The position numbers and the translations under genes are program-made. From positions 62,001 through 126,000 of the forward strand of contig NZ_CP041406.1 in assembly GCF_014905135.1 (NCBI RefSeq): DNA of 64,000 bases, read 5' to 3'. This document shows, one piece after another, positions 38,961 through 41,315 of the stretch. The stretch's first letter is position 1, and each line of letters begins with the position of its first letter. The notes beneath the pieces were generated by a model. That model worked only from the letters and a program-made list of their open reading frames with translations, was not told where the DNA came from and searched no databases. The stretch comes from Sulfurimonas paralvinellae. Its GTDB lineage: Bacteria; Campylobacterota; Campylobacteria; Campylobacterales; Sulfurimonadaceae.

Positions 38961-39824
38961 TTATGAATTCCTTAGCTCTTTGTACTCTGTTGGAATTAAA
39001 TAATCTTCTATCTTCACAAGTGTATCATAAAAACCGTGCTCATAGCCAATTTCAAAGAGCTTGTTTATGGCTTTGTATTGAATATCACTGAGTGTAATCG
39101 AGTCATCGTTTGCATAGAGTTCGAGATATTTATCAAGCGTCGGTGCATCTATACGAACGAGATTGCGTTCTATGAGCATTTTGCTAAGGCGTTCTTTGTG
39201 GTCACGCGCAACTTGAACAGCTTTTGTCAATGTCGCTTCATACTCTATGGCTTTGTTGAGAGGAATGGAGCGACGAATAGCCATACCGCCAAGTGGCAGC
39301 GGCAGATCTTTGCCTGCAAGTTCCTGCCAGATATCCCACATCTCACGTTCCACTTCTAGTTTATCATTGTAGGTAAGAATGGATTCATGAATAAGTACAC
39401 CGGCATGAACCGTTCCGTCTAAAACTGCCTGTTCGATATCCAAAAAGTTCATGTATGTTATGCGTGCTTCGGGGTAAGCGATGCGAAAGAGCATGGCGTT
39501 TGTCGTGTGTTTACCGCTGAGAGCCACTTTGAAATTTCGTTTGAGCTTTTCGCCTTTACGTTTAATGACCTTCGGCCCGTAACCCTCACCGAAACTGACG
39601 GCTGTACGAAGAGGTGCATACTGCTCTTTTATGTGAGGATAGAGAGCAAAAGAGATAGCGACAATGTCATAAACACCACCCAGTGCATCTTCGTTAAGGG
39701 TTTGAATGTCTTTTGCAATATTGTCAAACTGGACATCTTGCATTCCTACCCAGCCAAATTTAATGGCATAGTACATAAAAATATCGTCGGCGTCAGGTGA
39801 GTGTGCTATAAGGGTTTTTTTCAT
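38961..39824 (-). CDS. mqnD: 1,4-dihydroxy-6-naphthoate synthase (futalosine menaquinone pathway)
   Basis: 287 aa from MKKTLIAHSPDADD. The AHSPDADDIFMYYAI segment, SFALYPHI, SFGEGYGPKVI, SGKHTTNAML and LPLPLGGMAIRR are the MqnD family blocks. It turns cyclic de-hypoxanthine futalosine into 1,4-dihydroxy-6-naphthoate. An earlier in-frame start at 39881 would read through the inverted-repeat element and is rejected. The start codon lies 2 nt from the end of a 25-bp inverted repeat, so its ribosome binding region could be sequestered. Confidence 0.9.
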   Translation of the reverse strand: MKKTLIAHSPDADDIFMYYAIKFGWVGMQDVQFDNIAKDIQTLNEDALGGVYDIVAISFALYPHIKEQYAPLRTAVSFGEGYGPKVIKRKGEKLKRNFKVALSGKHTTNAMLFRIAYPEARITYMNFLDIEQAVLDGTVHAGVLIHESILTYNDKLEVEREMWDIWQELAGKDLPLPLGGMAIRRSIPLNKAIEYEATLTKAVQVARDHKERLSKMLIERNLVRIDAPTLDKYLELYANDDSITLSDIQYKAINKLFEIGYEHGFYDTLVKIEDYLIPTEYKELRNS

Positions 39825-39825
39825 A

Positions 39826-40094
39826 AGACTTCTTTCATAATCTCTGATACCCTTCAGTAAACTATACAACATGATAGTCAAGACGGATGTTCTTCAACGT
39901 AGCCGTAGCTACGGTGAAGGTTATCCAACGCAGAATATCTTTTTGTATAGTTTACCCGAAGGGAGGGTTAAAAAGAATCAACCTTGCACAAAAGTTTTCA
40001 TCACCGTAGCTACGGCTACGCTTCAAAAAACATTTTGCACAATCTTAACTCTTTTTAGCCCTCTGAAGAGTATCAGAGATTATGAAAGAAGTCT
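39826..40094. repeat. 269-bp nested inverted-repeat element between mqnD and recA
   Basis: Ends: 39826-39850 and 40070-40094 are exact 25-bp inverted repeats, extendable to about 32 bp with one or two mismatches. Inside, on the minus strand, arm P2 pairs 40033-40063 with 39963-39993 (31 positions, about three mismatches) and arm P3 pairs around 39943-39963 with 39850-39869 and continues imperfectly. Each arm is capped by a CGTAGC-nnnn-GCTACG hairpin, and the caps (39898-39917 and 40001-40020) are exact 20-nt complements of each other. TTGCACAA occurs twice. A minus-strand TACAAT (40100-40105) would start a transcript almost exactly at the element's end. No protein is encoded; the whole gap is 39825-40277. 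Confidence 0.85.
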
Positions 40095-40099
40095 GCAAA

Positions 40100-40105
40100 A
40101 TTGTA
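40100..40105 (-). promoter_or_regulatory. Possible -10 box for the mqnD leader
   Basis: GTTACAAT on the minus strand; transcription from it would begin near 40094, the outer end of the inverted-repeat element. Confidence 0.35.
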
Positions 40106-40240
40106 ACCAAATAAGTATGAAATAGGACTAAAAGAGGCTTCCTTTTACTTTATTTCGTTAAAATTACACATATTTATGGTGAAGCTTTTTAAAAAATATG
40201 ACAATATGACATAATTTTTACAAGTCTGAAAAAAATCATC

Positions 40241-40246
40241 TACAAT
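40241..40246 (+). promoter_or_regulatory. -10 box of recA
   Basis: TACAAT about 31 nt before the recA ATG; no obvious LexA-type operator was seen. The stretch 40095-40240 shows nothing else I can name. Confidence 0.4.
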
Positions 40247-40277
40247 ACTTCCAAATTTCATAATAAGTGAGTCCAAC

Positions 40278-41315
40278 ATGGATGCAAATAAACAAAAGTC
40301 ATTAGACTTGGCTATGAAGCAGATAGACAAAGCTTTTGGTAAAGGTGCGTTAATGCGCCTTGGTGATAAAGACATTGAACCTATACAGTCGATCTCTACA
40401 GGGTCGTTAGGGCTTGATCTTGCACTCGGTATCAATGGTGTGCCACAGGGAAGAGTTGTTGAAGTTTATGGGCCGGAGAGTTCAGGGAAAACGACACTGG
40501 CACTACAGATTACGGCAGAGTGTCAAAAACAGGGAGGCGTTTGTGCCTTTATTGATGCGGAACATGCACTTGATGTTATTTATGCGAAGAATCTTGGAGT
40601 AGATATTGACAATCTATTGGTTTCACAGCCTGATTACGGTGAGCAGGCGCTTGATATCGTTGAAACAGTTGCAAGAAGCGGTGCAGTTGATTTGATAGTG
40701 ATTGACTCTGTTGCGGCATTGACACCAAAAGTAGAACTTGAAGGTGAAATGAACGATCAACAGGTCGGTGTTCAGGCTCGTTTGATGTCAAAAGCACTCC
40801 GTAAACTTACAGGAGTGCTTAGTAAGATGAACTGTACGGTTATTTTCATTAACCAGATTCGTATGAAAATAGGGATGATGGGGTACGGATCACCTGAAAC
40901 TACAACAGGTGGAAATGCATTGAAGTTCTATGCATCTGTTCGTATCGATGTACGACGTATCGCTTCGCTTAAACAGGGTGAGAGTCAGATCGGTAACCGT
41001 GTAAAAGCGAAAGTCATTAAAAATAAGGTAGCGCCGCCGTTCCGCCAAGCAGAGTTTGACATCATGTTTGGCGAAGGAATCTCTAAAGAAGGTGAGCTTG
41101 TTGACTATGGTGTAAAGCTTGATATAATTGATAAAAGCGGAGCATGGTTTAGCTATGGTGAGACAAAACTGGGTCAGGGACGTGAAAATGTCAAAGCGAA
41201 GTTCAAAGAAGAACCGGAACTCGCACGTGAGATAGAAGATAAAATTCGTGAAGCAATGGGAATGAGTTCGCTGATGACAATGGATACTTCAGAAATAGCC
41301 GAAACTGACGTATAA
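40278..41315 (+). CDS. recA: Recombinase RecA
   Basis: 345 aa. Walker [10 protein letters not shown] near residues 63-71, [13 protein letters not shown], Walker [11 protein letters not shown] near 138-147, and the L2 region [28 protein letters not shown] near 200-227. It forms filaments on single-stranded DNA for strand exchange and repair. recA-eno adjacency is typical of Campylobacterota. There are no TGCGTGAG words in the 38.6-46.7 kb stretch that includes it. Confidence 0.98.

Follow-up and report, generated by a model that had tools for sequence, protein, structure and literature searches.

A probable MITE-like element, two-armed and with differing ends, upstream of mqnD in Sulfurimonas paralvinellae

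The closest described systems are the classical MITEs of the Correia/NEMIS, RUP and ERIC types, which, in the available portions of the sources, measure about 100–200 bp, form long stem-loops closed end to end (PMC2229807) and are transcribed (PMC10969869, PMC2229807); in the same portions, RNase III cleaves the transcripts of Correia, and the action of ERIC depends on its orientation. The element reported here resembles these repeats by its terminal inverted repeats, its terminal TA, its small size and its intergenic position (PMC10969869, PMC2229807, as excerpted). Compared by description only with what those excerpts give, it differs by its length of about 268 bp, by a closing stem that bears two arms, and by a single core associated with five end types over an order. 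Other repeats share part of this organization. The CIR repeats of Caulobacter and Brucella also have two long arms and a linker, but they carry a GANTC motif and are without terminal inverted repeats, again by description and within the available part of PMC2229807. The GTAG/CGTC REP repeats from Sulfurovum are likewise palindromic and interspersed, but these are palindromes of 20–40 bp in the accessible text of PMC3733652, against about 268 nt and two arms here. Finally, according to the part of PMC3049150 at hand, the BOX, RUP and SPRITE repeats of pneumococcus are over-represented between convergent genes, where the present family is on the contrary depleted. Rfam gave three matches for the region of the window, all far under the gathering scores, and none at E<=0.05 for five loci from across the order; among the matches listed from the open-licence literature, no title concerns such an element in Sulfurimonas or Campylobacterota.

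The window, i.e. the whole stretch of 64,000 nucleotides of S. paralvinellae DNA that was analysed (contig NZ_CP041406.1, positions 62,001 to 126,000), contains the element directly before a gene for which we keep the name mqnD given in the earlier note. The features are the following:

39826..40094, minus strand: whole putative mobile element, 269 nt, with A-type ends; its sense strand runs toward mqnD
40063..40094, minus strand: 5' half of the closing stem P1, which is the outer terminal inverted repeat (AGACTTCTTTCATAAT...); these ends are common to the IS5-family element L142
39826..39857, minus strand: 3' half of P1, which is the inner terminal inverted repeat, adjoining the mqnD start
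39964..40062, minus strand: arm P2, with the conserved TTGTGCAAAA / TTTTGTGCAA and tandem G.U positions
39955..39963, minus strand: inter-arm hinge CCC-TTC-GGG, CCC-NNN-GGG in most aligned copies
39856..39963, minus strand: hinge and arm P3, the region matched order-wide by the covariance model R1
39920..39939, minus strand: conserved internal loop of P3, strand 1 (Sulfurimonas consensus TACTCTGCGTTAGAT)
39870..39890, minus strand: conserved internal loop of P3, strand 2 (Sulfurimonas consensus ATCTGCCTTGATTA)
39898..39917, minus strand: P3 hairpin cap, perfectly complementary to the P2 cap
40001..40020, minus strand: P2 hairpin cap
39829..39836, minus strand: GAAAGAAG, a Shine-Dalgarno-like stretch supplied by the element and paired within P1 in the full-length fold; putative ribosome-binding role
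38961..39824, minus strand: coding sequence of mqnD, beginning with the ATG at 39824; it matches Pfam PF02621 (menaquinone biosynthesis) and no NCBIfam family
40100..40105, minus strand: TACAAT, a -10-like box; putative promoter

The closing stem, the two arms and the complementary caps that the earlier note had described before mqnD are confirmed, and the TACAAT box that it linked to an RNA start at the outer end is located as listed. By inverted-repeat search the closing arms (39826–39857 and 40063–40094) are 32 nt long and 97% complementary, their pairing reading as 25 perfect pairs, one mismatch, then six pairs; the caps are perfectly complementary over 20 nt and each holds CGTAGC-nnnn-GCTACG. 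The sense strand is predicted to fold into the closing stem and two arms, with a minimum free energy of -139.4 kcal/mol (321 nt), where 100 shuffles give -65.7 +/- 4.5 (z -16.5). The gap to the mqnD ATG, formerly given as 2 nt, is 1 nt (ATG 39824–39822); it is 2 nt if the element is bounded GAC...GTC plus a TA target duplication. The nested inverted duplication also proposed is real as an architecture: the first and last ~92 nt match inverted at 75%. As the element is in this way imperfectly palindromic to itself, it might alternatively fold as a single long hairpin with CCCTTCGGG as its cap. As for a kissing of the P2 and P3 cap loops, the caps are without covariation visible by eye in the aligned copies.

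Further copies, for which the earlier note had advised a search, exist in number. There are six elements in the S. paralvinellae genome, and all 20 matches of R1—a model built from 38 P3 arms—lie inside these six. Taken in the sense that leads to mqnD, the six copies all have a gene start downstream, and four of them end 0–1 nt 5' of the start codon; the genes are mqnD, nth (TIGR01083), gmhB (TIGR00213), one of MlaD/MCE type (PF02470), a short one that matches no family, and one for a DbpA-type RNA helicase (NF008744). In the genus, 33 of 100 Sulfurimonas genomes have BLAST matches to the window copy, and R1 at E<=0.001, with E-values that are rough, has matches in 84 of 135. In the order, to which Sulfurovum belongs like Sulfurimonas, R1 at E<=1e-6 has matches in 85 of 298 genomes and 27 of 81 genera, the 298 including the window genome and other members of the genus. 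An exact-pattern scan of genome contigs gives at least 11 matches, a lower bound since the pattern was narrow. Phage and plasmid records gave no match to the element at E<=1e-5, and viral contigs none with exact patterns, the first of which was narrow. Over a wider set of copies, the genes that follow 104 sites belong to 92 clusters, with no shared gene class to be seen, so that no regulon is visible. A riboswitch or leader RNA specific to mqnD is rejected on account of this diversity and of the six copies placed before six different genes. Six copies in one genome, an order-wide distribution, one folded core with differing ends and a position near gene starts all point instead to a mobile element.

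The ends are in agreement with mobility. Clean A- or G-type terminal inverted repeats bound 58 of the 66 copies of the first set, that is those found with the window copy. Target-site duplications, a check suggested in the earlier note, are apparent in the family but not at mqnD: TA stands on both flanks of 41 of the 49 A-type copies, and the window copy is flanked by CA/TT, its duplication having either decayed or never been TA. An IS of about 900 bp in a related species (L142:1501-2399) has the same kind of ends, TAGACTTCTTGCATAACC at either extremity with TA flanks, and two overlapping ORFs matching IS5 models. These ORFs score 59 and 110 bits against NCBIfam IS5, under the 140-bit whole-protein cut-off, as expected for a split transposase gene, while the Pfam HTH_Tnp_4 and DDE_Tnp_4 scores exceed their cut-offs. 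A second locus, L137, has ends similar to those of L142, to which alone the IS5 assignment applies. When both are compared by BLAST with 100 elements, the ends align over about 17–28 nt (best E 3e-6); their interiors, taken 35 nt from each end, display no significant similarity (best E 0.21). As the interior of the element shows no sign of derivation from this IS, we use the label "MITE-like"; the criterion of interior derivation is itself loosely applied in the literature on MITEs. An autonomous relative with matching ends was recognised for A-type ends only, and an inspection by eye of loci whose ends are G-type (20) or D-type (14) showed no cognate IS.

Orthologous loci support the same idea. 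Among 30 mqnD ortholog loci searched with R1, that of the window genome is the only one to carry an element at mqnD, the one in L247 lying elsewhere in its locus. Over the 700 nt that precede mqnD in 25 orthologs, BLAST finds no strong similarity to the elements, with weak matches (E<=0.01) in L266 and L274, neither of which belongs to the genus; recA is kept on the opposite strand in 9 of these 25. A loose motif screen had put elements upstream of mqnD in 7 of the 25 orthologs, which R1 and BLAST dismissed, the weak L266 and L274 matches aside. A TAAAAT/TATAAT-like box lies about 6–8 nt 5' of the mqnD ATG in 12 of 14 Sulfurimonas orthologs inspected by eye, so that mqnD looks leaderless in most of these Sulfurimonas relatives and the window copy fills the gap; the insertion would have taken place between the -10-like box and the ATG. 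Terminal repeats, TA flanks, empty ortholog sites and an IS5-family element with the same ends make the element look like a non-autonomous DNA transposon, and we hold the MITE-like reading, one of those proposed in the earlier note, to be probably the right one. An IS5-type transposase would then move it in trans through the terminal repeats.

Mobility may nevertheless belong to the past. The 187-nt query made of the IS end is matched in 13 of 100 genomes of the genus and has no match in the window genome, so that the mqnD copy may be immobile now; and remnants of 48–53 nt reduced to the closing stem, in this genome (C1:295736-295788) and in G018, indicate that a site may lose the core and keep the stem. 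Both observations are compatible with a former mobile element which now only lengthens the mqnD leader, its arms staying complementary solely by replication-slippage correction, an explanation that we find rather unlikely although not negligible. A purely passive sequence accounts poorly for the constancy in length: 262–272 nt in 53 of 58 first-set copies, and, among 20 loci from across the order, 267–281 nt in the 17 for which both ends were located. As a separate remark, D-type ends also form short palindromes made of the closing stem only, of roughly 40–60 nt (L349, L362, L364; G200).

The core also recurs at the scale of the order. We read 20 loci, picked from the best R1 matches listed so as to spread over families. 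By eye they divide into 2 with A-type ends, 9 with GGGCAC-like G-type ends, 4 with AACTGA C-type ends, 4 with ACCGCACCAAC D-type ends and 1 with TAAGTACC E-type ends; in L278, L290 and L291 one end or stem is not cleanly found. Within family f20, G, D and E types all occur. As judged by eye from these sequences, the same two-armed core is found with five unrelated end types across the order. Mixed combinations occur: in L005, which belongs to the window genome, and in L060, the ends are G-type (0.90 and 0.80 identity to G-type versus 0.47 to A-type) but enclose an A-type P3 (0.79 and 0.87 identity to A-type versus 0.56 and 0.57 to G-type). In family f10 (G162:C2, G239:C119; L276, L277) both arms match R1 in opposite orientation, giving a near-symmetric form which may be closer to the ancestral state. 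A core that lasts across the order as its ends change would mean that the interior of a non-autonomous element, and not solely its match to one transposase, can persist.

The helices covary, 27 of the 34 P3 pairs being changed on both sides, which raises the question of the level, RNA or DNA, at which pairing is kept. In pairs predicted on both strands, G-U and A-C combinations number 81:99 over 66 distinct copies of both sets, 80:107 over 54 distinct first-set copies, and 40:60 over the 33 sense copies situated within 40 nt of a start, whereas RNase P RNA, taken as a control (26 distinct Sulfurimonas sequences), gives 26:9 for common pairs and 199:11 for the sense fold; these cells are not independent events, so that all such counts are descriptive. 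In the variable pairs G-U is not above A-C, unlike in RNase P RNA, and the covariation looks DNA-level. In the covariation check recommended beforehand the helices covary without any sense-strand wobble excess on both-strand pairs, and the idea that the wobble-rich arm betrays selection on RNA is not supported. Covariation as a proof of RNA was rejected on the RNase P control; the excess over the whole sense fold, 371:105, remains. This G-U excess resides largely in a small number of near-invariant columns, and the opposite strand shows almost the mirror image of it: the 11 sense-only pairs hold 231 G-U cells and the 8 antisense-only pairs 177 A-C cells, fixed wobbles being therefore only slightly one-sided. 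The comparison with RNase P illustrates how strong covariation in mobile palindromes can pass for RNA selection.

These figures bear on two alternatives. One is a structured RNA leader under selection, whose sense core would set the translation or stability of any downstream gene, mobility serving only to spread it; we regard it as doubtful. The whole sense fold speaks for it, both by its G-U excess and because G-U occupies four columns in 80% of copies or more, A-C a single one; the balanced both-strand pairs, even in the near-start sense copies, the antisense A-C cells, the lack of a common downstream gene class and the Rfam result, with no match at or near a gathering score, speak against it. 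The other is the passive sequence already mentioned: near-equal G-U and A-C counts fit palindrome correction, which would however erase the internal-loop mismatches, and these are retained in most aligned copies, in the genus and beyond. Conservation of the internal-loop sequences across the order goes beyond what we would expect for a passive MITE, and this counts against the MITE-like reading. We read the alignments as those of a palindrome whose pairing is preserved in the DNA, apart from specific mismatches that may be recognised, whether as single-stranded DNA, cruciform or RNA. Arm complementarity could be maintained by a cruciform or hairpin function, or by palindrome-correcting template switches, and certain mismatches of each arm might be kept because the folded strand is recognised.

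Position relative to genes brings other arguments. Automatic gene calls around 126 copies resolved 105, with orientations ++ 47, -+ 42, -- 15 and +- 1. The baseline was random intergenic TA insertion (3000 of 3137 sites, 464 kb of the window genome); since it comes from one genome, the copies from many and the starts from automatic calls, a modest bias is all that we claim from the comparisons that follow. Convergent sites are fewer than simulated (1/105 versus 171/2323, p 0.007). The sense-side end lies <=35 nt from a start about twice as often as simulated (54/96 versus 459/1688, p 9e-9), while the other end is near the baseline (19/57 versus 391/1459, p 0.29); the second set alone gives 18/36 (p 0.004) and 10/27 (p 0.27) respectively. 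Between tandem genes, sense and antisense copies counted by gene cluster stand at 25:4 for the first set, at 15:10 for the second (p 0.42) and at 37:13 overall. A near-universal sense orientation, expected from the first set, was dropped after the second, and only weaker claims are kept. The selected RNA leader gains from the sense-side enrichment, from the tandem total and from the depletion of convergent sites, opposite to the pneumococcal repeats (PMC3049150, in its available part); the orientation bias, strong in the first set only, is against it. The sense-side enrichment near start codons leaves room for an effect at the RNA level. Insertions might survive mainly just 5' of start codons, the element being then often transcribed as a leader. 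With this placement, reverse to that reported for the pneumococcal repeats, one can test directly whether many unrelated genes are affected. In a few tandem cases (L003, L006, L046, L049, L052) the upstream frame stops at a TAG formed at the element edge, so that insertion at a TA lying between stop and start spares both reading frames.

At mqnD, the element, if transcribed, would bury the ribosome-binding region according to the fold model. For a full leader starting at the outer edge of the element, the 13 nt ahead of the last element nucleotide, which include GAAAGAAG, have an unpaired probability of 0.00; in a fragment cut 14 nt from the end of the element, the mean unpaired probability, taken over this stretch plus the start, goes up from 0.29 to 0.56, a gain that is small in L002 (0.26 to 0.31) and L004 (0.29 to 0.40) among the five copies tested. 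The closing stem could then either bury this region or be cut by RNase III, as the available part of PMC10969869 describes for Correia. A scan of 39700–40300 found no intrinsic terminator.

Could the element rather drive transcription? Sitting directly 5' of starts, it might be a portable promoter for the downstream gene, and one weak match, GTTACA-17-CATAAT (9/12), extends into the terminal repeat. Yet by eye no -10 hexamer is conserved in the gene-proximal half, and promoter-like matches number 4 against 2.5 +/- 1.6 in shuffles. Upstream of the element, -10-like boxes are not clearly commoner than on the opposite strand (29 versus 26 of 42; 27 versus 20 of 47), which also led us to give up the -10 box at the outer end as a general rule and to keep it only for mqnD, on account of the orthologs. 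We judge a portable promoter very improbable.

Beyond the MITE-like reading itself, a wider proposal, which we put forward as speculative, would join these observations: an order-wide mobile unit selected for its folded two-arm core and not for its ends. It would swap terminal repeats so as to ride several IS transposases, retain defined mismatches within palindromes that are otherwise corrected as DNA, and settle in sense before start codons, the folded strand (single-stranded DNA or RNA) being recognised there and changing the expression of many unrelated genes.

A few minor points may be added. An identity with integron attC sites was considered, as the motif GTTAGAT fits their core-site consensus, GTTRRRY, and set aside, the half-sites being in the opposite order. 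The P2 arms of L131 and L086 (G027) contain nested insertions, CCCCAAGGG...GCGGGCAAG with a CATCGGCTTTGCCGACCGCTTCGCTT stretch, perhaps another small repeat. A gene which we presume to be polA-like has an element directly upstream in two species, with G-type ends in L095 (G029) and A-type ends in L100 (G048). Lastly, in the window copy (39824-39870, minus strand), L002, L004 and L100 the part of the element nearest the gene can be read through in frame with the start codon that follows, so that an N-terminal extension is possible: mqnD, nth and the MlaD-like gene are preceded by the in-frame translation ...LLKxIRxYERxLM..., and the frame of L100 before polA begins LIINLYNLLNNIRG.
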